NCBI GenBank assembly: GCA_015143295.1 | Contig: CM026563.1 | Span: forward strand, 3,162,001 to 3,226,000 | Length of the DNA stretch: 64,000 nucleotides | Origin: Tetracentron sinense | Taxonomy: Eukaryota > Streptophyta > Magnoliopsida > Trochodendrales > Trochodendraceae | Direction of reading: 5' to 3' | Shown: one piece after another, positions 1,343-19,310 of the stretch | How positions within the stretch are numbered: the first letter of the stretch is position 1 | Layout of the letters: every line of letters begins with the position of its first letter | The notes under the pieces: model-generated | What the model was told of the DNA's origin: nothing | Databases searched by the model: none | Seen by the model: only the letters and a program-made list of their open reading frames with translations | Position numbers and translations under genes: made by a program

Positions 1343-3730
1343 CTATTTGAGCGGGTTGGGAGAGGTATAATCACACTTCTGCGATGCCAGTTGGTCTCCT
1401 CTTATTTCACGCGGTCCATCCGGTGTGGGGAATTTCAATACCTGGTAATAAGAAGACGGAACAGCTCTCATTTCGTGAGTCCACCATCGCCCCAGGATAG
1501 CATTGTATGGGGACGGCGCATCGATAATGGAGAATCGGGTGGACAAGGTGATAGGTCCAGCTCTGACCGGTAAGACGACTTCGCCCAGGGGTTGCATCGA
1601 ACTTCCTTCGAATCCTATCAAGGGGGTCTGTGCGGGTACAAGAACCGCTGGATCCAACTCCATCTTCGTGAAAGCATGGAGGTACAGGATATCCGCTCCA
1701 CTCCCAGGGTCTATGAGCACTCGTCTGATGTCGAAATCGCCAATTCTCATGGACAGGACAAGAGCATCGTAGTGAGGTCTGACTACAGTTGCCATGTCTT
1801 GGTCAGTGAACATTAGGGCCTGCTCGACTTCCTTCGTCGTCGACCGCACTTGGTAAACTTCTGCCACGTGCGATAACTTCCTTGCTTTCGCTCGATACTG
1901 CTGCTCAACGTCGACTTCCGGTGCTCGAGCGCGATGGATGACGTTTATGACTCCTTTCGGAGCTTCTCCACCTCGGTTCATTTGACCAAATGGCTCTCCC
2001 TCGTGAGACCGAGTGGATGGCTCCGTTATATGCCCCTCTTTTCTTCCAGAATCCACGTATTCTCCCAGATAGCCCTCACGGACTAATCTTTCCAAGTATT
2101 CTCTCAGGATGCGACAACGATTTGTGAGATGCCCATGGCACTTGTGGTATTGACAATATTCGTGTGCCCTGGGTCCCGTAGTGACATCACGAACGGTCCG
2201 TGCTGGCCATTCGAAATATGGTTCGTCTTCCATCGTCTTCATGATCGTCGCCGGGCTTGCTGTGAAGTTAACTTGACCACCACGAGACGCAAAAGGACGT
2301 CTTTCTGTTGCTCGATTTTCCCTCTCCTTGTAATGCCCGGATTCCTCCCGTCCTCGATAGGCACGGTCGTCCCTCCGCCGGAGATTGGACCGTAGATCCG
2401 TTCTCCTTGACGAGTCTGCATCTTGGCGGATTCCCAGCGAGAGTCGATTCGATCCTCCTTGTCGTTCAACGTACACAACTTTTTCTTGTCGTATGCGTCT
2501 GCGTGGTTCCTCGTCACTGGAAGATGATTCATACTTCGATCTCTTCCCTCTCTTTGAGGAGGGTCTGCTTCCCCATTCCACAGCGTCTACCCCTCGTGCT
2601 CTAGGCCTCGTTGTTGCCGCAATATCTTCCTCCATCCTTCCGTACTTAGAGGCACGGACTATCAGCTCGTCCATCTTGATCGGACAGTCAAGGGCAAGAG
2701 ACTCGTAGAGTTTGGAACTCTTGGGTATGGCGTTCTTGAAGGCCGCTATGCAAGTGCAGTCCTCAATCTTGTCGATATTAGAGACTTCATCGGTAAACCG
2801 TTGAATAAAATCTCTAAGAGACTCCGCCGACTTCATTCTCATGGCGAAGAGGGAATCTGCACCAGCTTTCTTTTTCTTGTTGATGATGTACTGGTCAATA
2901 AAAACTGACCGGAGATCAGCCATGCACCTGATCGACCCCGCGGGGAGATTACGGAACCATCTTGCAGCCGCTCCAGTCAGGCTGCTAGGGAAGGCTTTGC
3001 AGAGGAGATTGTCATCCGGGTTACGGACAGCCATGGCATTTTTGAAGTCGGTCAGGTGGTCAATAGGATCCCTCCTCCCATCGAACTTAACAAAATTAGG
3101 CACCGTGAACTTTGACGGGGTATAAGATTCAACGATTTCCTTGGAGAAAGGGGACGTCTCCTCCTCGTCCTTGTACTTCTGAGCATACTGATCGAGAGAG
3201 GCTCCACCTGTCGTTCCTCTGACTCGAGCGTTAATCAAGGCTTCCACGTCTTTGAGAGTCAAACCCGTCTTCAACCCGCTGTCGCTGACGTGGAGATCTC
3301 GACGTTCAGCATGAGCATCAAGAGAACGGGGGCGGGTAGCTTCGTCAGCAGAAGGAGTGAGAGTGAATCTCCTCTCCAGATTCTCTGGTGCAGATGGCGA
3401 GATCGGGGCCGTTCCTCTGGGGGGAGGAGAAGAAGGGAAATTGAGTTTGCGAGCTGCAGAGCCCCCTCTAGGAGATTCGTCATCGATCTCCAAGTTTCTG
3501 TGCTCCAAAGCATCTAGCCGCTCCTGCAGTGACTGTTGCTGGCTGACTACTTGGGCCAGAGTGGCCTGTTGTTGTTGTAATAGTAGCAGGATGGGATCAG
3601 ATGTGGTCATGGGCCTTTCTGGTTGTCCAGAAGGTGGGCCTGATGCGAATGTTTGCATGGTAGAAGGGGTGCATGAAAAGGCTTGAGGGGGCTGGTGCTC
3701 GATGAAAGACTGGGGAGTTTGGTTTGCCAT
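1343..3730 (-). CDS. Retrotransposon gag-protease polyprotein
   Basis: This is a 795-codon open frame starting 74 bases inside the LTR. The N-terminal 170 residues are low-complexity with a Gln-rich stretch. The central part (about 200-350) is a retrotransposon gag domain (PF03732-like; FVKFDGRRDPIDHL and RWFRNLP patterns). A basic Arg/Ser-rich segment follows, then a CCHC-like cluster (CQYHKCHGHLTNRC), then an aspartic protease-like domain near 680-760 with a GSGADIL block and YNAILGR. In this family Gag packages the element RNA in cytoplasmic virus-like particles and the protease matures it. It belongs to the element spanning the left edge; there is no sign that the host has co-opted it. 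Confidence 0.88.
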   Translation of the reverse strand: MANQTPQSFIEHQPPQAFSCTPSTMQTFASGPPSGQPERPMTTSDPILLLLQQQQATLAQVVSQQQSLQERLDALEHRNLEIDDESPRGGSAARKLNFPSSPPPRGTAPISPSAPENLERRFTLTPSADEATRPRSLDAHAERRDLHVSDSGLKTGLTLKDVEALINARVRGTTGGASLDQYAQKYKDEEETSPFSKEIVESYTPSKFTVPNFVKFDGRRDPIDHLTDFKNAMAVRNPDDNLLCKAFPSSLTGAAARWFRNLPAGSIRCMADLRSVFIDQYIINKKKKAGADSLFAMRMKSAESLRDFIQRFTDEVSNIDKIEDCTCIAAFKNAIPKSSKLYESLALDCPIKMDELIVRASKYGRMEEDIAATTRPRARGVDAVEWGSRPSSKRGKRSKYESSSSDEEPRRRIRQEKVVYVERQGGSNRLSLGIRQDADSSRRTDLRSNLRRRDDRAYRGREESGHYKERENRATERRPFASRGGQVNFTASPATIMKTMEDEPYFEWPARTVRDVTTGPRAHEYCQYHKCHGHLTNRCRILREYLERLVREGYLGEYVDSGRKEGHITEPSTRSHEGEPFGQMNRGGEAPKGVINVIHRARAPEVDVEQQYRAKARKLSHVAEVYQVRSTTKEVEQALMFTDQDMATVVRPHYDALVLSMRIGDFDIRRVLIDPGSGADILYLHAFTKMELDPAVLVPAQTPLIGFEGSSMQPLGEVVLPVRAGPITLSTRFSIIDAPSPYNAILGRWWTHEMRAVPSSYYQVLKFPTPDGPREIRGDQLASQKCDYTSPNPLK

Positions 3731-8573: not shown

Positions 8574-9805
8574 AACAACCTCCTCTCTGATAGTGCCTTT
8601 CCTACCAAATGACCAAAGCAAAAGTTTCTTTATGGCAAGTCAAAATCTTATAACTTTGGTTATTCAAAATTCAGTAAGCCCACTTTCTTGAATTTTTAAA
8701 CTTAACTAATGCAAAAAATAGAAATTACTACCAACTGGAACTTGTAAGCTGATTGTTGCCAGCACAATGCATTGAGTAATGTTGGCTTTCCACAACCCCC
8801 TAAACACCAATTGCTAACTTTATCCGCATTAAAATAAGTATCGAGTTTAAGGATTGTTAGATTGCCCCAGTAGATCTATTGAAACAGAGTTATTTGCACC
8901 ATAAGAGATACAATTAGGTTGTTCAGCTCGAGGTGGATATGGAGGTACGGATTAGCTCCTCGTTACAGAAAACACATTTAGCCGGATAAGTGTGTTCTCT
9001 GGAAATGATTATTTACTCCTACAGTGCAATAGCGAAAGGGTAACTACTGCAACTGAACGACTCACTAGGAAAATTTTGTTAGTTGGTTTTCAATTACATA
9101 GCATTTTCTAATGGTATGACTATCGCTTGTTTTTGTGTAGTTTGTACTACAAATAGGGTTGGGCAGCAACCCCGGTACGTTAGCATCTGATATTGATTAA
9201 TAGGTTAGGTTGACATATCAACTACCACAATCATAATTCAACAAAATGGATTATAAACTACTCATGAGAATTATCAGTCACTAGGGCTATACAATGGATG
9301 GGTTCCGAAAATCTCAATTTGAGGTTTGAAAATTTCGACATGGGTTCCGAAAATCTCAACCCAAGTTTCTCAAATTTCGAGATGAGTTCTGAAACCTCGC
9401 TACGAGTTTTTTTTTTCTTCTGATTTTATCGATTTAGCTAACAAAATTTTGAGAACACCCCAATCATTATTGATTTTTAATAAATCTCATGGATCTAAAA
9501 TGTTAGATCAAATCTCAAACAAAAATTTGATATTTTCAACAGAAAAATGAAACTCAAAATGTTAGATACTGTTTATACATATTCAACAATCCTCCCGAAG
9601 GTTTGATCTTAACGCACTGCATTTAAAAAAAAAAAATCAATTGAGAATCCTCGTCTCCACTTGGTTTCTTTCCTTATTTTTTTCTTTGGGATAGTTTAGT
9701 TTGGGAAGCTTCTTTCTCTTCGGTCCCCTCCTCTTCGTTCGAAAACATATTAAGCCAATACGTGCATCACCCATATAAGTACAAAAGCCTACAAAAATAA
9801 GAGTT
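8574..9805. other. Non-coding DNA
   Basis: No gene is recognised. Near 9300-9410 a phrase of the type GGTTCCGAAAATCTCAA recurs imperfectly three or four times. Confidence 0.4.
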
Positions 9806-10014
9806 TGTCTATGGGTACTCCCAAATATACTCTATAATCCTAACCGTCTATAACTAACCACTAAGGGTTTGGATTTAAATTGACTTATTTTGTTTTTGTC
9901 TAATACCACATTAGCTCTAATCCTAACTGTTCAATAATTGAGTACTTACCGTTTAATAATTGAGTTGAACTGTTAGGATGTAGGAGTTATATATTTGGGA
10001 ATTGAGAGTACACC
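9806..10014. mobile_element. Possible MITE with imperfect terminal inverted repeats
   Basis: The left side reads GGGTACTCCCAAATATACTC then ATAATCCTAACCGT. The complement of the right side reads GTACTCTCAATTCCCAAATA then ACATCCTAACAGTT. The ends are therefore about 45-bp imperfect inverted repeats, with a further inner palindrome around CAATAATTGAG. No clear target duplication was found, so the superfamily is open. Confidence 0.4.
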
Positions 10015-10082
10015 TTGAGAGTATTCATAAATTAATTGCAAAAACAAATGATAAAAAAATTAGGCTTTAAGAGTTTTTCAAA

Positions 10083-12821
10083 GGCTCAGGATCCTCTCGA
10101 GTTGAAATCGAGGAGACTCTCTCTGGTTTGAACCCCTAGAGGTCACCACGTGTCTCCTTTGACACCCCTTAACTATAACGACCCTAAAATCCTACAAGGC
10201 TAAAATAGAACTTTTGAATCGTCACATTTCCTTAACCTGCTTAAAACCTATACATACAAGGCATACTAACACGAGTCTCCAAAAATGAAGATAATAAAAT
10301 TCCGATATATAAACTCAAACCATCTTGCTCAAGTCTATGGTCAACATATACAACCCACTATAAACAAAATAGTACAATACACAACTATAAAGAAGTCTAA
10401 TAAACATCTTCTAGTATTACAATCCTCTTAAACAAAACAAAACATAAACTAATAGGGGTAACCTTCAAAACCCCTGACTCCCTCCTCTGAAGGTTCACCT
10501 TCTCCTCATTCCTCGACGTATATCTTCTCAATCCACGGCCCTGCCGTGTGTTACTACTCTAAACCTATAAAGACAAAAGTCTGGCTGAGTACAAAAGTAC
10601 TCGGTGTATATAAAATCCAACCAACAACATAGTATACTTGCACTTAGTTAGAACCATATCTAATAACATAATAACATAATCAGAGTGCGGAAGAACATGT
10701 GCTCATATACATCATATCATCACCTTGATTCGTGTACTTGTGAGAACCTTAGACTTAGAAGACAACATACTTATGAGATGTTTATGCTTATGAGATCACG
10801 TGCTTGTGAGATGCTTCTGCTTATGCACTTATTCAGATATCTCAATAGGCTTATTCAGAATGTCATACGTATGTCATGTTTATGCTTATGAGTCTTGAGC
10901 AGCTTATTCAGAACATGCACTTATTTAGATCCCTCATTAGACTTATTTAGAATGACAGACGTATGCAATGCTTATGCTTATGGTTCACATGTGTGACTTG
11001 TGAGACTCTTATCTTAACATACAGGTACATTTGTGCATAAGTGTCGCAATTAACATTCGAGTTGGTAATCATTTAGATTCCAATCTCCTACCATGAAAAC
11101 TCCATTATGATGTCTCATACCATATAATTAGAGAATTTCCGGTTTGAAAGATTTTCTTCTAAATTTTTGTTTTCCCGAATATCAATTACCATGCAAGTAA
11201 TTAAGCATAACTTAACAAGCAATCACACACACACACACACATATATATATCTTATTATGATTCTTAGCATAATTTATAATCAATTTCCAACAATTCAATA
11301 GTGTTAAATAAATATTTATTCTCTCAAACATTTTCACAAACACCTTGAGTACGTACTTTATGAATACTGTGTCATTTCACATATCCAATATTTCATCACA
11401 CTATAATCCATCCGCACAACCTAAATACAATCCATATCCACACATTCATCCCATCTTCCATAATATTTCCTATTCTCCATACATTCCATCTACATCCATA
11501 TTTTCATTCATAATAGCTTACTTCATATAAAATTGGGGAAAATACATCTAATCTCAATTTCTATCATATTAACATTCATAAAACATTATAATAGAGTTGG
11601 TTTGGATAGTATATTGACTTTAGGGATCATTTCCTTGGATCCAAATCGCTTCCAAGAAGCTTTGAGGAAGATCTTCAAGCTAATCTCCTTCCTCTTTAAG
11701 CAAAACTCTTCTTCTCAAAGCCAAAATCCTCTTAGAACCCTAGGTTCTTACTCTTCATTTGCTAAATTAGGTTTAAAATGGGTAGAATACCGTAAAACCT
11801 CGAAATAGGATTCCTATTTATAGCCCCAATAGATAACCCCCCCCCCCCCCCCCCAAAAAAAAAAAAAACACTGTTTTAAGAGAAAAACTGGGCGCGAGTG
11901 CGATTGATCGCACTATAGGCGTGATTGATTGCACTTAGACCGAAAAGGACTAAAAAAAACTCGTCTATATGCGATTAATCGCAGCTCCTCTGGATTCCGA
12001 CTGATTTTATCCTATTTTGGTATTTTGACCATAACTTTTGACTCGTTCATTGGATTTTGACGATTCAACTTGCGTTGGACTCATATTTTGAAGGGGAACA
12101 ACTTTGATGTTTTACAAATATCATAATTTTAAGTTTTTAAAGGTGTAATTAGGTTCTAAAGGTGATTGATCTGCAATTTCATCAGATAAAACATCGAAAA
12201 ACCCACTTTTGACTTAGCTTAGACTCAAAATTTGGAAAAACATTAAACATCAACTTTGAAGAGGGTTCCAATACATTTCTAATGGTTAAAGAATCACTCG
12301 ATTCCGATAAACGGTGACAAAACTAGAGCTTCCTAAAGTTCAGGGTGTGTTAAGGCCTCCCTCTCTTTACAACTTTGATTAAACCTAGATCACACCACAT
12401 TAATTAAATATAAATACACACACATTAAAACATGATAAAAGACTAAAATACTCTTAATACTTGCATAAAAAGCATGAAAAAGATTCAGGTCTCTACATTA
12501 ACCATAGGTAAGGTTCACCCACCCCTAGGGTTCACTCATCCATCATTGGTTTTGTTTAAAAAATATTAATTCTTTATTTAAAATTAAAAACTATTTTTAA
12601 TATTAAATAAACTCTAAAAACAGTATTTTTAATTTAAAAAATAATAATTAATATATAAAAAAAAAAACCAAGGATGGGTGGGTGAACCCTAGTGGTGGGT
12701 GAACCTTACCCTAGGGTTCACCCACCCATGGTTAAGGGGTGTCGAAGGAGACACGTGGCGACCTCTAGGGGTTCAAACCGGAGAGAGTCACCCCGGTTTG
12801 AACTCGAGAGGATCCTTAGCC
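10083..12821. mobile_element. Mutator-like MITE, family A, long TIRs, interrupted by a solo LTR
   Basis: Own sequence is 10083-10173 plus 12503-12821, about 410 bp. The left end GGCTCAGGATCCTCTCGAG is matched inverted by the right end. The inverted repeat continues through a GACACCCCTTAACCATAGG block and a TTCACCCACCCCTAGGGTTC block, giving arms of roughly 150 bp. The left flank is TTTTTCAAA (10074-10082). The right flank in the better-kept duplicate (14917-14925) is CTTTTCAAA, a 9-bp duplication with one mismatch; the flank at 12822 has lost a T. The arms can fold into a long hairpin, and there is no coding content. Confidence 0.82.
10174..12497 (+). mobile_element. Solo LTR (2.3 kb) inside the family A MITE
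   Basis: It opens TATAACGACCCTAAAATCC and closes TTCAGGTCTCTACA, with an exact 5-bp duplication TTAAC at 10169-10173 and 12498-12502. No internal domain or second LTR is present, so it is a solo LTR left by recombination. The ends resemble those of 46144-48393, and both share a GGCTGAGTA...TATA...AAAATCC region, so they belong to one broad family of long plant LTRs, probably Ty3/gypsy. The interior has a (CA)n tract at about 11224-11241 and a C15/A14 run near 11838. The short open frames inside are not genes. Confidence 0.83.
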
Positions 12822-13047
12822 CTTTCAAATTGTGGGCCTATTTAAGGAATTTCCCAGGTAAAGGCCATGCTCAAATTTTCTCGCGCTAAAAGCATGGGAG
12901 GGTGATTTGGTAATTATCGTATTGCTTGTAGAAATCCGTCGACGCGGGCGCTCGAAGCGGCGCATTTGCAACTCCCGGTCTCTTTGTAGTAACTGCCACC
13001 TCTGTACTCTGTAGTGAGAGAGAGAGAGATTTTTGCGATTTTTTCCT
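10960..13047. repeat. Tandem duplication, unit 1 (2088 bp)
   Basis: CGTATGCAATGCTTATGCTT starts here and again at 13051. From there the two units align to TTTTTTCCT at 13047 and 16073. The unit holds the right 1.54 kb of the solo LTR, the right part of the family A MITE, and about 220 bp of host DNA just upstream of the DUF6598-like pseudogene. Three extra bases (AGG) lie at the junction. Because MITE and LTR are in both units, they predate the duplication. Confidence 0.93.
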
Positions 13048-13315
13048 AGGCGTATGCAATGCTTATGCTTGTGGTCCACATGTGTGACTTGTGAGACTCT
13101 TATCTTAACATACACGTGCATTTGTGCATAAGTGTCGCAATTAACATTCGAGTTGGTAATCGTTTAGATTCTAATCTCCTACCATGAAAACTCCATTATG
13201 ATGTCTCATACCATATAATTAGAGAATTCCCGGTTTGAAAGATTTTCTTCTAAATTTTTGCTTTTCCGAATATCAATTACCATGCAAGTAATTAAGCATC
13301 ACTTAACAAACAATC

Positions 13316-13371
<56 letters not shown>

Positions 13372-15002
13372 CTTATTATGATTCTTAGCATAATTTATAA
13401 TCAATTTTCAACAATTCAATAGTGTTAAATAAATATTTATCCTCTCAAGCATTTTCACAAACACCTTGGGTACGTACTTTATGAATACTGTGTCATTTCA
13501 CATATCCAACATTTCATCACACTATAATCCATCCACACAACCCAAATACAATCCATATCTACACATTCATCCCATCTTCCATAGTATTTTCTATTCTCCA
13601 TACATTCCATCCACATTATTAAATCATATTTCTATCTATAATAGCTTACTTCATATAAAATTGGGGAAAATACATCTAATCTTTATTTCTATCGTATTAA
13701 CATTCATAAAACATTATAATAGAGTTGGTTTGGATAGTATATTGACCTTAGGGATCATTCCCTTGGATCCAAATCGCTTTCAAGAAGTTTTGAGGAAGAT
13801 CTCCAAGCTAATCTCATTCCTCTTTAAGCAAAACTCTTATTCTTCAAGCAAAAATCATCTTAGAACCCTAGGTTCTTATTCTTCCTTTGCTAAATTAGGT
13901 TAAAAATGAGTAGAATACCCTAAAACCTCGAAATAAGATTCCTATTTATAGCCCCAATAGATAAACCCCCTCCTAAAAAAACGCTGTTTTAAGAGAAAAG
14001 CTGGACGCGAGTGCAATTGATCGCACTATAGGTGTGATTGATTGCACTTAGACCCAAAAGGACTAGAAAATCCTCGTCTGTATGCGATTAATCGCAGCTC
14101 CCCTGGATTCCGACTGATTTTACCATATTTTGGTATTTTGACCATAACTTTTGACTCGTTTATTAGATTTTGACGATTCAACTTGCGTTGGACTCATATT
14201 TCGAAGGGGAACAACTTTGATGTTTTACAAAAATCCTAATTTTAAGTTTTTAAAGGTGTAATTAGGATCTAAAGCTGATCGATATGCAATTTCATAAGAT
14301 AAAACATCGGAAAACCTACTTTTGACTTAACTTAGACTCAAAATCTGGAAAAACATTAAACATCAACTTCGAAGAGGGTTCTAATACCTTTCTAATGGTT
14401 AAAGAATCACTCAATTCCGATAAACAGTGAAAAAACTAGAACTTCCTAAAATTCAGGGTGTGTTAAGGTCTCCCTCTCTTTACAACTTTGATTAAACCTA
14501 GATCACACCACATTAATTAAATATAAATACACACGCATTAAAACATGATAAAAGATTAAAATACTCTTAATACTTGCATAAAAAGCATGAAAAAAATTCA
14601 GGTCTCTACATTAACCATAGGTTAGGTTCACCCACCCCTAGGGTTCACTCATCCATCATTGGTTTTGTTTAAAAAATATTAATTCTTTTTAAAAAATTAA
14701 AAACTGTTTTTAATATTAAAAAAACTTTTAAAACAGTTTTTTTAATTTAAAAAATAATAATTAATATATGAAAAAAAACCAAGGATGGGTGGGTGAACCC
14801 TAGGGGTGGGTGAACCTTACCCATGGTTAAGGGGTGTCGAAGGAGACACGTGGCGACCTCTAGGGGTTCAAACCGGAGAGAGTCACCCCGGTTTGAACTC
14901 GAGAGGATCCTGAGCCCTTTTCAAATTGTGGGCCTATTTAAGGAATTTCCCAGGTGAAGGCATGCTCAAATTTTTTCGCGCTAAAAGCATGGGTGGGTGA
15001 TT

Positions 15003-15919
15003 GGCCTGGCTTGCCTCTGGCGAAGCCAGAAAGGGCTTATCTCGGGGTTCCATAAAATAGGTGACATGTGGTGGAGAAGTCAAAATCATGGGGCCCATGA
15101 TTTTGACTTCTCCACCTATAATAAGGCAAGTGGCGATAAGTGTGTGAGAATAAGGGTGTGAGATATCAAATGGGGAGAAGTCAAAATTATGGGGAGAAAA
15201 TGGAAAGACTTCTCCCCCATTTTTACGCCAAGTGTCGCACAATGTATGGAACCCCGAGAGCCCTTTCTGGCTTTGCCAGAGACAATCCGAGGCAGGGGCG
15301 GAGCCACATGGGGCCCAGGGGGGGCTGAAGCCCCCCCTCAACTTTTGGGAATTTTTTTTTTGCATAGTGTAATGTGGGTGTGGCCTAGGAGCAAGGGCAA
15401 AGCCGGGTGGTGGTGGGGGATCTAAGCCCCCCCTGAAAATTTTGAGAAGAAATTTTTTTTTTTTATATTTATATTATTTAATTTAAGATGGCGTAGGCAT
15501 ATGAAAATGCTTAAATTACCGGTGTTTTTCATCATTGAATGAAATGGCCGGTCCTCATTGGTCCATGCCCTTCTTTAACCCTCACCAATTGTGGTTAAGA
15601 TTCACTCACTCATAGAGTTAAGCAATCGAACCTAGTTTTTTAGAAAAAAAAATAATAAAAATCTTAAATTTAATTTTGATAAGCTTAACCAGGGTTAAAG
15701 GAGTAATAAAAGGGACACGAGGACACGACGGTAAGTTAAGCAGTGGGTTTGCTAATCATCACTACTCAAAACTATATTCTTTACCAACGTACAAAGAGAC
15801 GAGATGACCCACAAACTTGGCACTAAATTTTTTTTTGGGGAGCGTAGCCCCCGAACCCCCACGTCTCACCATTAGCCCCCCCCGGCCGAAAATCCTGGCT
15901 CCGCCCCTGATCCGAGGCC
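15003..15919. mobile_element. Mutator-like MITE, family B, copy 2, split by a hAT insertion
   Basis: The left end GGCCTGGCTTGCCTCTGGCG and the right end (complement of GCCTCGGATTGTCTCTGGC) match copy 1 at 5790-6061 in reverse orientation, including the GATTTTGACTTC interior words. Flanks GTGGGTGATT and GTAGGTTATT form a 10-bp target duplication with two mismatches. Unit 1 near 12900 reads straight through (GAGGGTGATTTGGTAATTATC) and is the empty site. The last bases of the right TIR are separated by the hAT element at 15293-15909. Confidence 0.9.
15293..15909. mobile_element. Non-autonomous hAT element (617 bp), CAGGGGCGGAGCC family
   Basis: It opens CAGGGGCGGAGCCACATGGG and closes GGCTCCGCCCCTG, a 13-bp perfect TIR, with an exact 8-bp duplication ATCCGAGG at 15285-15292 and 15910-15917. 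TIR form and 8-bp duplication identify the hAT superfamily. The G/C-rich ends (GGGGGGCTGAAGCCCCCCC and AGCCCCCGAACCCCC) flank an AT-rich core with no transposase. It landed inside the right TIR of a family B MITE, so it is the youngest layer of this stack. Confidence 0.95.
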
Positions 15920-16254
15920 GTAGGTTATTCGGTAATTATCGTATTGTTTGTAGAATACCGCCGACGCGGGCGCTCGAAGCGAAGCATTTGCAACTCCCGG
16001 TCTCTTTGTAGTAACTGCCACCTCTGTACTCTGTAATGAGAGAGAGAGAGTGAGATTTTTGCGATTTTTTCCTCACGCAGAGTAATGAACAAACTCCCGA
16101 GAGCAACTCTCGCCGTTCAAATTGCCGGCGTTCGCCTGATTCCAGAACGGTAAGTCCCCTTCCTCATGTAAGTCTGCCGTTCAACAGGTTCGGCCGCTTC
16201 TCTTCTCAAAAACGCAAGCCCTAATATTCTCTGAAACTAGATCTATGCTACGAC

Positions 16255-17165
16255 ATGTCGACAATCGACGGGCAAGGTGGCAACAAACTCGAGTCCAGTC
16301 GTCCAGATGAGGTATGTATTTTCAAATATCAAAGTATCCTCTCATTTCTGTAGAAATGTCCACACATTTATTTATTTATAATTTATATGAATCTCAGATG
16401 ATTTTCCTTATTTTAGATGGATCCCGAATTCACAGAGGGGTTAAACGTTGAAGAGGTATCGGAAAGGGTTATGTGCAACCAGGGACTTTATGGAAAGTGC
16501 TTACGACTTGAGTTGTTCTCGATGCGCAACATGAACATCAGCCGCGACATCTATTACAATACATCTAGAACCGAAAAAGGGAGGAATCCAAATCCATCCG
16601 CCCGACCAATAATGATTTGCTTTTGACTGGCCCAGATCGAGCCATCTCAGCCTATGGGGATTGCACCATCTGTGTGGATCTCATCGATAAGGACAGAGAC
16701 CTGCCCCTGGTCAGTCGTGGTTGAGGGCGACTATGGTGATGGTTATGATTCTGGTTCCGTAAGAGTGAGCTACATTGTGTTAACTGATGCGGTGGAGGCT
16801 GCTGTGAAGGTTACGCTTATAATTGGAGGTGGGGAAGATCCCTCCCTTGTTTATTGACGGATTACTGCTTGCAATTACAATTATTCAGAAGAAAGTGTGC
16901 TTTTCCGAAAGCGATCGAAGGAGCACATAGATTTAAGGTCCAGCTCGTTCCGTTGTCAAGATAAGTAGTAGCTGTGCCATTGAACTCCCTCCTCATAGTT
17001 CGAGTGGATCTGTGGGATTACTACTCCATTTCTTCTGATGTGATTGCCAAGGGCACTGCAGAGTTCCTTGCAAAATTCTGCGGTACATTCAAGAAGCGTA
17101 TTCGTGGCCAGTGCAGTGAGATCCAAGTGAAGGTGAATTTTGGACCTGAGATATATGATACTAGG
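16255..17165 (+). pseudogene. DUF6598-like gene, broken
   Basis: A short first exon (16255-16311, 19 codons, MSTIDGQGGNKLESSRPDE, GT donor) is followed after a TTTTAG acceptor by a large exon from 16417. That exon encodes LRLELFSMRNMNISRDIYYN, LLLTGPDRAISAYGDCTICV, VLTDAVEAAVKVTLII and VVAVPLNSLLIVRVDLWDYY. The LTGP.RA block, the (V/D)AVEA.V.V block and the RRVV.V-type strand follow the pattern I recall for the plant DUF6598 family, whose function is unknown. The blocks lie in different frames (at least three changes) and one in-frame TGA follows PSLVY at 16857, so this copy is probably not functional. The tandem duplication ends about 180 bp upstream. The DUF assignment is from memory. Confidence 0.5.
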
Positions 17166-19310
17166 TACTATAGTAGGAGGCGCAGTAATTATTTTTTGTG
17201 TTGGATGCAACTTGGATTTGTTTTGTTATGTTACTATGTTACATCTATGGTGCTAGACTGTTTTCCCTCCTAACCATTGATTGGATCTGTTTTGTTATGT
17301 TACATAACTTACATCTATCGTACTAGACTGTTTTCCTTTCTAAGCATTGATTGTGTTCTTTGCAATTCAGTCTATGATTTGTTTCAATTGATCTGTTAAT
17401 GACTCTTATCCCTATAGAAACATGTATGTTATCCACGTTCAGAAACCTTAGATCTCATTGAAAAACTATCGTAGTGGTAATATTTCAGCATTTCTAAATC
17501 TTTTGATTCCATGACAATCTTTTTTTGCACTTGGATGAATCTATGGTTTTCTGGAGTATTTGTTATTTGGAAGTAACTGCGAGTCTTGATGAATTCTAGA
17601 GTTCTGATTTAATTTGTTGTCGAGAAATGAGGGCATTGATAGTATGGAGTTAAGAGAACCGAGATTTTGGAACAAATATTGGAGCTTCTTAGGGTTTTGA
17701 GTGATCGATGTGTTTGTGTTTCTCTTGAAAACATCATTACATGCAGATAATTATGGTTTTAGATGAATGTAGGAATCTGTTTTCTTTACTCTGTTTCGCC
17801 TTTTGAAACTTACAAAAAAAAAAGGTGTGATACAGGATATGTCGACAGGATTTCAGATGAATTTCTGAGTGTTTTACAGTCTTTCTTAGGGTTTATGATC
17901 GAGGTTTAGCACTGCCATTCCTTCACTAGATCTAAGGTTTGTAGTGAAGCTTGAAGCCCCTTGCAATCATTATGCTTATGGTTTACAGAGAGATGGTGAG
18001 GAAGAAGCCAAGGGAGAGCCTATGATTCTCAATTCAGTGTTGAAGAAAAGAAAGAGGAGTGATGGATAGTAGAAAAGGCAAAAATTATGCAGAACTAAGA
18101 AAAGTGAATGAACATAGACTAAACACACTATAAACTTATGAGGGTTCCTTCACTGGATACAAGTCATCAGTACTACTGAGTACTGACATCTCAACCATAG
18201 GGTGCCATAACTCGTCACTAGAAGCAATTTCTGACAACATACATTCGGAGTAGATATTCATACCAGCCTAGCTTAGAGGAATTCACATCTTTAGCGAGAT
18301 GCATAAAGCTAAGCATGTCCTGCCCCTGAAATCAAGCAAGGTATTTTTTTTTTAAATATGTAGCAAGGTAAAAGATTATTGCTCACCAGTAATATTACAC
18401 GCAAAAAAAAATTACTCGAAAACAACCCACCAAGACTACAATTAAGCAATGACAGTGGTACTCTATCCCAATAATATCTTATGTATTAGAACATGTTTCC
18501 CATTGGTCCAAGTATAGGGTTTATAAAATAATCTCCTCTGTAGCATATACAACTATACAAGATCATTCCTCAAATTCTTTAAGATACGATCAAGTGATAA
18601 AACCATATCAAGGCAACTTTGTAAAAGGTAATATACACATGTACATCCGCTTCGAAACTTGCTGACAATGGTCAACAAGTTAAATAGATCAAATATACAT
18701 CCAAAAAATCCACTCTGAAGACACCTCTCTTTACATCTAAAGAACTCCCTCCCTTAATAACAATCATGGATTGGCAACCCCAGTCATCATCTCGTAAGCT
18801 ATCTGCTTTCGAAATTTACTGACATCGGCCTAAAAATTACAGAATTTATTAATAAGTACCATAGTGAATATAACTAGTGAGGCGGATCAAAATATAGCTT
18901 ACTCTTGAATTGAATGTGTAAATCAACACATAGGAAGTCAACATATTTCATCAAGGAAATCCCGCAATCCCAGCTAATATAAATCAACAATTGAATTATG
19001 AATACATTGTAACTAAACAGGTACTGAAATACATTATAAGTAAATTTCTTACATTAGACTTGCACATTCTTTTGCTTCAATAAGTACGAGCTGCATCGCA
19101 TTACTTGGGATATTATATTCCCACTTAGCTCCTCCAACTGTAATTGCATTCCCCCGTGTCATGCGTTGGAGGAATACCTCTTTTACTAGCTACAAGACGC
19201 TAGCAAAAAAGGTATTTAATTTAAAATAGGTACAAAATTATATCCATTTTCTTAGTTATTATATCTAATTTCTTAGTTATAACTTTACTTTTATGTTCAT
19301 AGCTTAGAGT
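17166..19310. other. No recognised gene
   Basis: Non-coding DNA follows the pseudogene. A TTGGATCTGTTTTGTTATGT phrase near 17282 echoes 17215. No domains, repeats with target duplications, or RNA genes were seen. Confidence 0.4.

Follow-up and report, generated by a model that had tools for sequence, protein, structure and literature searches.

To our knowledge, it has not been settled whether plant Mutator-type elements multiply through cut-and-paste followed by repair or through a copy-out route. The transposases of the IS256 family are described as similar to those of eukaryotic Mutator-like elements, and the circle joints contain spacers derived from the flank of either end, 5, 6, 7, and 19 bp long for IS256 and 6–8 bp for ISCth4, in the account of PMC7780238. 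IS256 is reported to form tandem dimers and circles according to a title cited in PMC9333248, where IS30 is also described as dimerizing site-specifically, the copies of its tandem dimers lying head to tail at a short, constant spacing. Circular forms of eukaryotic Mutator-like elements were reported for maize Mu1/Mu1.7 and Kluyveromyces lactis alpha3, and circles were proposed as a possible unifying trait of the superfamily (PMC3942029). Extra tandem TIRs were described in Mutator-like elements (MULEs) of tomato, rice, maize, and Arabidopsis (PMC3310237).

The MITE family B of Tetracentron sinense, one copy of which lies in the window analyzed here (a stretch of 64,000 nucleotides), can be compared with these systems. 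IS30 has a spacing of 2 bp and a different transposase family; its dimers, as described, and family B share head-to-tail copies with a short fixed spacer. The circle joints of IS256 and ISCth4, as far as the published account goes, resemble the family B joints in their short flank-derived spacer and in the use of either end as donor, whereas family B is a 292-bp plant element without room for a transposase, and its joints are seen here in genomic DNA. Its joint is 5 bp long at most loci, while the lengths given for IS256 and ISCth4 are variable. Mu1/Mu1.7 and alpha3 are described as circular molecules, whereas family B shows chromosomal joints with a 5-bp half target, of which the relevant sections of PMC3942029 give no description. 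The MULEs with tandem TIRs resemble family B in carrying extra tandem ends, but their extra TIRs lie inside one element with one target duplication; slippage or recombination was considered, and the relevant sections of PMC3310237 do not describe a fixed flank-derived spacer. No paper on the 5-bp half-target joint was found when titles and abstract openings of the open-licence literature were searched for tandem or circular MULE/MITE joints.

The copy of family B in the window belongs to a nested stack. In nested transposon stratigraphy in plants, the insertion order is obtained from nesting and target duplications, and divergence is used for relative dating; the stack is read likewise, but here a tandem duplication provides both an empty site and a clock within the locus itself. 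PMC2686159 reconstructs end joining, recombination, and transposition for a maize region, and fragments left behind by later insertions are a topic of PMC2672092. Stratigraphy of this kind is ordinary and the stack contains no new type of event; by itself it is a clean teaching example, with a built-in clock, of how transposon layers are read. Greater weight falls on the family B joints.

Layers of the stack

The stack lies upstream of a DUF6598-family gene. Every layer listed in the initial annotation was located at about the same coordinates. The outer layers are a MITE of family A and a solo LTR in its left arm:

10074–10082, unstranded: left target-site copy of MITE A, TTTTTCAAA
10083–10173, + strand: left arm of MITE A, ending with one TTAAC copy; ends common to 7 other genomic copies
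10169–10173, unstranded: left target copy of the LTR, TTAAC; other MITE A copies are uninterrupted at the same place
10174–12497, − strand: solo LTR, Ty3/gypsy, complete, 2,324 bp; recognized from genomic relatives with paired LTRs
12498–12502, unstranded: right target copy of the LTR, TTAAC; copied in unit 2 at 14611–14615
12503–12821, + strand: remainder of MITE A in unit 1, from alignment with unit 2 and other A copies
12711–12726, + strand: 16-bp insertion in unit 1 only, reverse complement of 12677–12692; found neither in unit 2 nor in the 7 other aligned copies of MITE A
12822–12829, unstranded: MITE A, right target copy (unit 1), CTTTCAAA, lacking one T
14616–14916, + strand: remainder of MITE A in unit 2, from alignment with unit 1 and other A copies
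14917–14925, unstranded: MITE A, right target copy (unit 2), CTTTTCAAA

MITE A has terminal inverted repeats and a target duplication of about 9 bp, as Mutator-type (MULE) MITEs do, and the 9-bp duplication annotated before is found between the left copy and the right copy of unit 2 (8/9). The right target copy is imperfect in both units. Five of the 7 other copies have 9-bp target copies matching at 8/9 or better (by eye), and the remaining 2 fit loosely.

The TTAAC copies on either side of the solo LTR match at 5/5, in agreement with the earlier placement in the left arm of MITE A. Two complete LTRs of the same family are present at locus L072, while locus L073 has one complete LTR and part of a second at the edge of the stretch examined. 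The domains between these LTRs are gag, RT, RNase H, and integrase-associated domains: gag and RT at L072, where an integrase zinc-binding match falls below the curated cut-off, and RT, RNase H, and then the integrase zinc-binding domain at L073. With gag and pol enclosed by long LTRs, and with integrase preceded by RT and RNase H, the family is assigned to Ty3/gypsy.

A stretch that starts inside the LTR is tandemly duplicated, and the inner layers are confined to the second unit:

10957–13047, + strand: unit 1, 2,091 bp
13048–16073, + strand: unit 2, 3,026 bp including MITE B and the hAT element
12830–13047, + strand: single-copy host leader within the duplicated unit; only 3 genomic matches were found, which are the two units here
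12898–12907, unstranded: unoccupied target of MITE B (unit 1), GAGGGTGATT, in a single copy
14993–15002, unstranded: left target copy of MITE B, GTGGGTGATT
15003–15292, + strand: MITE B as far as the hAT insertion; 14 other copies fetched are 98–99% identical
15285–15292, unstranded: target copy to the left of the hAT element, ATCCGAGG
15293–15909, + strand: non-autonomous hAT-type element, 617 bp, with ends CAGGGGCGGAGCC and 8-bp target copies
15910–15917, unstranded: target copy to the right of the hAT element, ATCCGAGG
15918–15919, + strand: last two bases of MITE B, CC; other copies end in CAATCCGAGGCC or near variants
15920–15929, unstranded: right target copy of MITE B, GTAGGTTATT; 10-bp duplication, 8/10 against the left copy (by eye)

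MITE B also has the features of a Mutator-type (MULE) MITE, terminal inverted repeats and a target duplication of 9–11 bp. Among the 14 other copies fetched, 13 were measurable by script, and in all of them the target copies span 9 or 10 bp and differ at one base or none. Those in the window have two mismatches in 10 bases, which exceeds what the low private divergence of the element would suggest. The hAT assignment follows from the 8-bp target duplication, the short terminal inverted repeats, and the ends of the element, which at 617 bp is too short to hold a hAT transposase. Its family comprises 39 other scored copies (97–99% identical) and one further fragment (73%); target copies match at 8/8 in 13 of 15 copies, the window included, at 7/8 in one, and at 3/8 in one. 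As the initial annotation had proposed, MITE B is present in the second unit only, unit 1 retains its exact empty site, and the hAT element lies in the right arm of MITE B with identical target copies (8/8); neither element occurs in both units.

The nesting, the target copies, the empty site, the divergence, and the sister relation of the units are direct observations. Chance is an unlikely explanation of the stack, since the ends recur with target duplications (8 bp for hAT, 9 bp for A, and 9–10 bp for B) in most other copies examined. The stack is very probably the product of separate, ordinary mobile-element events: A, the LTR, the duplication, B, and hAT.

Order and age of the events

The order A, LTR, duplication, B, and hAT follows from the nesting and the empty site in unit 1. 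The Mutator-type MITE A would have been inserted first, followed by a Ty3/gypsy retrotransposon into A; at some time, presumably through recombination between its two LTRs, only a solo LTR of this retrotransposon was left. Next, a blunt non-homologous join would have produced a tandem duplication of 2.1 kb, which starts within the LTR and ends shortly upstream of the gene; the Mutator-type MITE B would have entered unit 2, and the hAT-type element the terminus of B. A five-event order readable without an outgroup, as first claimed, is thus upheld by nesting, empty site, and private changes, but the LTR-LTR recombination is a sixth event that had been missed, and the anatomy gives it no order relative to the duplication.

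The duplication had been described as containing both A and the LTR. Its length of 2.1 kb is right, but the unit starts inside the LTR, of whose 2,324 bp it therefore holds 1,541, and it includes no more of A than the right part. The joint CCT|AGGCG at 13047/13048 is blunt, and we infer end joining as the cause of the duplication; among 16 other LTR copies inspected, 8 have AGGCG at the equivalent position. A homeologous or haplotype copy of the locus, which could have shown an intermediate state, was not found for the host leader in this assembly.

Alignment of the two units, a check already suggested with the annotation, revealed 113 differences at 2,057 aligned sites (K2P 0.0573 ± 0.0055), and the direct flanking repeats were present on realignment. 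The units are sisters with a support of 100/100 against 13 other LTR segments, which are those passing the coverage filter among 20 loci searched. Derived changes in the LTR part are balanced, 31 in unit 1 and 28 in unit 2 (30 unresolved, 1 with too few rows), and the use of the duplication as a clock is fair. With plant substitution rates of 1.3e-8 or 6.5e-9, the duplication would be 2.2 or 4.4 million years old.

MITE B has private changes at 2 of 279 sites and the hAT element at 7 of 611, the most among 15 copies compared (the other 14 have 0–3). If present since the duplication, about 8.0 would be expected in B and 17.5 in hAT, and the observed counts have probabilities of 0.014 and 0.004, respectively. 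With the lower non-LTR divergence the same tests are weaker (0.053 for B, 0.039 for hAT, and 0.005 together). The counts agree with the nesting order. Against this, the share of private changes is higher in hAT (1.1%) than in B (0.7%), though nesting makes hAT the younger. The mismatches between the target copies of B and the imperfect right target copy of A also count against the reading.

It is very improbable that B predates the duplication and that exact excision or conversion subsequently removed it from unit 1. Such a precise loss would likewise leave a clean single target, but B would then be expected to carry about 6 to 8 private changes rather than 2. Moreover, both target copies in unit 2 read T at the position of an A in unit 1, as though the units had diverged there before B arrived, although the ancestral base could be either. 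A retrotransposon still full-length at the duplication, with LTR-LTR recombination as a later, unlisted step, is a tenable but less favored course. Since the unit starts inside the gene-nearest LTR, a full-length element to its left would stay untouched by the duplication, and divergence is slightly higher in the LTR (0.062) than in the rest (0.045). However, this difference is not significant (p = 0.19), and no significant change point of divergence, a sign of late LTR-LTR recombination, was found along the units (p = 0.33) or within the LTR (p = 0.22).

Head-to-tail joints of family B

Family B also forms head-to-tail chains elsewhere in the genome. In a scan allowing spacers of 0–30 bp, 8 of the 11 loci have a joint of 5 bp, and its sequence differs between loci. 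One locus from outside the scan brings the five-base loci to nine, and at eight of these the joint bases equal one end of the adjoining 9-bp flank in the same orientation. The ninth, C1436, is uncounted, as its spacer fits the flank only as the reverse complement. The joint at C4:4717 fits the left flank but not the right, and the right flank of the C3 array fits the joint at 4/5. The full 9-bp target lies between B copies at two joints (C5 and C2).

The fixed 5-bp joint was found at none of six places with inverted B pairs, right end to right end, where the spacers are 15, 9, 9, 7, 16, and 14 bp. It was also absent from the three places with adjacent MITE A copies (spacers 9, 9, and 18 bp), whose ends are alike so that orientation is indistinguishable, and no adjacent hAT ends were found within 30 bp when exact ends were searched.

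Origin of the joints and arrays

Head-to-tail joints with a spacer of a few base pairs from the flank of either end, as in IS256, are seen in family B among genomic joints. By this analogy, the fixed 5-bp joints suggest, rather than prove, a copy-out step in a plant Mutator-type element, and hint that family B may be copied through circles like its bacterial relatives. One end of B would attack the flank exactly five bases beyond the other end, of the same or a sister copy, and this would yield circles, or dimers arranged head to tail, with half of the target duplication retained in the joint. Whether family B passes through an IS256-like copy-out step, with the 5-bp half-target joint as the trace left in the chromosome when a eukaryotic Mutator-type system transposes replicatively, is in our judgement evenly balanced.

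A second B inserted beside the first, with the terminal GGCC and five flanking bases as its 9-bp target, would predict a flank-derived 5-bp gap, and 4 + 5 gives the usual target length. This is nevertheless highly unlikely, as it also predicts a doubled outer GGCC, whereas a single GGCC is present at C247 and C1:716, where the outer end was read. A more serious candidate, to which we still incline less, is end joining of excised B ends with staggered cuts, or the origin of tandem copies by slippage or unequal exchange. The hAT and Transib elements are cut-and-paste systems. MULE transposition is said, from the title of Liu and Wessler 2017, to resemble theirs; the full 9-bp target at C5 and C2 could come from unequal exchange or an ordinary second insertion, and the array L074 probably grew by unequal exchange following the first dimer. 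However, end joining or slippage predicts neither a single constant length at 8 of 11 loci that differ in sequence nor the absence of the joint from the inverted pairs scanned. The 5-bp half-target joint is scannable in any plant assembly, which makes the question of how plant Mutator-type elements gain copies testable from sequence alone.

Dimers produced by copy-out would then seed tandem arrays, and a dimer of MITE B could start a satellite-like array. One locus has 18 B copies in a tandem array. Outer ends of B were absent from the stretches examined to the left of C1:716, C3:353, C2:352, and C1246 and to the right of C19, C5, and C1436; a further B joint takes the place of the outer end in the stretches left of C1:2374 and right of C1246. 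Along C1246 the array changes orientation, and parts of C1246 and C1436 resemble one another in reverse.

The insertion stack and its tandem duplication

The layers were checked by reading, by self-comparison of the window (C13 3162001-3226000), and by unit-to-unit alignment, and the whole assembly (1.16 Gb, 1,479 contigs) was searched. All layers named in the initial annotation were confirmed, as was the order of the five insertion and duplication events. The observation is correct and its interpretation nearly so. The stack is an ordinary kind of event series; the joints of the family B MITE are the part that deserves specialist attention.

10174-12497, minus strand: complete solo LTR inside MITE A
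10957-13047: unit 1 of the tandem duplication
13048-16073: unit 2, which also holds MITE B and the hAT element
Left target copy of MITE A: TTTTTCAAA
Right target copy of MITE A: CTTTTCAAA in unit 2, CTTTCAAA in unit 1

The target copies listed for MITE A bear out its proposed 9-bp target duplication. Its ends (GGCTCAGGATCC...) and arms are recurrent in the genome, with matches in all 40 sequences scored, window included (the best 40 of 919 first-look candidates). In the alignment with seven other copies and their flanks, 9-bp target copies of at least 8/9 identity were seen by eye in five, while L002 and L007 fit only loosely. A 16-bp insertion private to unit 1 (12711-12726) is the exact reverse complement of 12677-12692, and looks like a small template switch postdating the duplication. 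To the left of MITE A lies a further palindromic, repetitive element (about 9792-10037), whose matches are mostly 84-90% identical among the best 40 of 2,699 candidates scored. Two adjacent MITE A end pairs at C4:41330083 and C4:41331651 have 9-bp spacers alike in sequence and lie 1,568 bp apart, perhaps as a larger repeated unit.

The LTR was recognized as complete through comparison with two other loci: L072, in which two complete LTRs of the same family start about 7.1 kb from each other, and L073, with one complete LTR and part of another. It is flanked by TTAAC on either side, and other MITE A copies are uninterrupted at this position. Between the LTRs, Pfam matches to gag and reverse transcriptase were found in L072, with an integrase match below the curated cut-off, and reverse transcriptase, RNase H, and then an integrase zinc-binding domain in L073; this is the Ty3/gypsy order. 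The window LTR is assigned to the minus strand because the frames between the family LTRs run opposite to its orientation. Recombination between LTRs probably adds a hidden sixth event, which the anatomy does not order relative to the duplication and on which the divergence is not decisive. With the left edge of the unit inside the LTR nearer the gene, the duplication may have occurred while the retrotransposon was full length.

The duplication was initially described as containing both MITE A and the LTR. Parts of each are indeed included, but with its start inside the LTR, the unit takes in 1,541 of the LTR's 2,324 bp and only the right part of MITE A. The duplication joint is blunt, with CCT directly followed by AGGCG, and 8 of the 16 further LTR copies read have AGGCG at this position; we infer that end joining made the joint. 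The divergence called for initially is K2P 0.0573 ± 0.0055 (113 differences in 2,057 aligned sites), with no change point found along the units, and the LTR part (0.062) and the non-LTR part (0.045) do not differ significantly (p 0.19). A tree was built with 13 further LTR segments, drawn from 20 searched loci by a coverage filter and including both LTRs of one element; in it, units 1 and 2 are sisters with support 100/100. The 90 differences in the LTR part comprise 31 derived in unit 1, 28 derived in unit 2, 30 unresolved, and one with too few rows; the 31 versus 28 changes indicate that the clock runs evenly in both units. A genome search with the host leader within the unit returned no match beyond those in the window units.

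Late insertions and surrounding sequences

MITE B is confined to unit 2, and unit 1 retains the single, empty target, as initially described. All 13 of the copies measured (14 fetched) have 9- or 10-bp target copies that differ at no more than one base, which sets the element ends at GGCC...GGCC; in the window, the duplication is 10 bp long (8/10, by eye). The hAT element (617 bp) does lie in the right arm of MITE B, within its last bases, with 8/8 target copies on either side. Across 15 copies, window included, 13 show 8/8, one 7/8, and one 3/8. Compared with 14 relatives each, the window MITE B carries 2 private changes over 279 sites (relatives 1-5), and the window hAT has 7 in 611 (relatives 0-3), the most changed of 15; because the comparison used the closest matches found, the counts may be biased. 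Presence since the duplication would predict about 8.0 changes for MITE B (P 0.014) and about 17.5 for hAT (P 0.004). With the lower non-LTR divergence, P becomes 0.053 and 0.039, and 0.005 jointly.

Downstream of the units (16417-17273), a DUF6598 domain was found in three pieces; the gene looks broken because the pieces are in two reading frames and two are below the Pfam cut-off (one is above), and introns are also possible. The 92 matching stretches related to DUF6598 (40 scored of 93 first-look candidates), many of them on C13, suggest that this gene family has expanded on a single chromosome. On the minus strand, 1343-3730 is an open frame of 795 aa that encodes a retrotransposon gag domain; no other closed frame listed for the window both reaches 200 aa and has a usual start codon.

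Head-to-tail joints of MITE B

MITE B forms head-to-tail arrays elsewhere in the assembly, including 18 copies with a 297-bp period at L074 (C3:49291010-49296354) and 2.8 copies at L075 (C7), and arrays or dimers with 5-bp joints also occur at C1:23741409, C1246, and other places. The genome was scanned for a right end, a spacer, and a left end. When 1-25 bp was allowed for the spacer, 29 of 30 matches had 5 bp and one had 9 bp; with 0-30 bp and decayed ends, 33 of 36 have 5 bp, two 9 bp, and one 29 bp. Counted per locus in the latter scan, with C1246 and C1436 grouped because they share a spacer, 5-bp joints are present at 8 of 11 loci, and the spacers there have eight different sequences. 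Under an even spread of lengths over 0-30 bp, at least 8 of 11 loci would fall at one specified length with a probability of about 2e-10, or 31-fold higher when any length counts. L075, from outside the scan, is the ninth 5-bp locus.

At eight of the nine 5-bp loci, the spacer is the first or last five of the nine bases of at least one flank, in the same orientation; at C1246/C1436 it matches only as reverse complement. Of 12 readable flanks, nine are correctly oriented 5/5 matches; the three exceptions are C1436 and the right-hand flanks of L074 (4/5) and C4:4717 (no match). The whole dimer at C247 reads ACGGGAGTA, element, ACGGG, element, ACGGGGGTA. By eye, the two 9-bp joints hold the full target, the script having returned no row for either: at C2 the spacer TTACTTATT equals the right flank, and at C5 the spacer TTTACACAA matches the left flank GTTACACAA at 8/9.

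With exact ends only, 5 bp is seen at 7 of 8 head-to-tail loci versus none of six places with inverted, right-to-right pairs (Fisher p 0.005, unchanged after dropping one duplicate place). Adjacent MITE A ends at three places have spacers of 9, 9, and 18 bp, none of 5 bp, and no adjacent hAT ends were found within 30 bp.

Other arrangements were also observed. The array at C1246:9514-12480 and C1436:20275-20925 has an orientation flip, with joints on both strands. One copy at C1436 seemingly has left ends on either side, and one at C4:47175770 seemingly has right ends on either side.

Origin of the 5-bp joints

Family B may pass through a copy-out step, giving circles that later recombine back in, or dimers formed between sister copies; this reading, built on one assembly and pattern scans, is given an even chance. 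In an IS256-like step, one B end would attack the flank of the other end, which would leave five flank bases, from either end, in head-to-tail order. IS256-type transposases are similar to Mutator-like ones, and spacers of 5, 6, 7, and 19 bp (IS256) or 6-8 bp (ISCth4) are donated by either end (PMC7780238). Both maize Mu and an element of K. lactis have reported circular forms, and circles have been proposed as a possible unifying feature (PMC3942029); tandem P-element joints of target size are described in a review (PMC9659126). Family B resembles the bacterial elements in drawing joint bases from the flank at either end, although their spacer lengths vary more, and its half-target joint is a different signature from the P-element joints.

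End joining of excised B ends, or slippage or unequal exchange, could instead have made the 5-bp joints, which is a somewhat doubtful explanation. It gains a little because C1246/C1436 is not counted as a flank match and because the title of a 2017 study by Liu and Wessler reportedly likens MULE transposition to hAT and Transib elements. The same title, the more variable bacterial spacers, and two or three unfitting loci are why the copy-out step is rated no higher than even. A second insertion of MITE B into GGCC plus five bases was rejected, since it predicts a doubled GGCC, and GGCC is single at C247 and C1:716.
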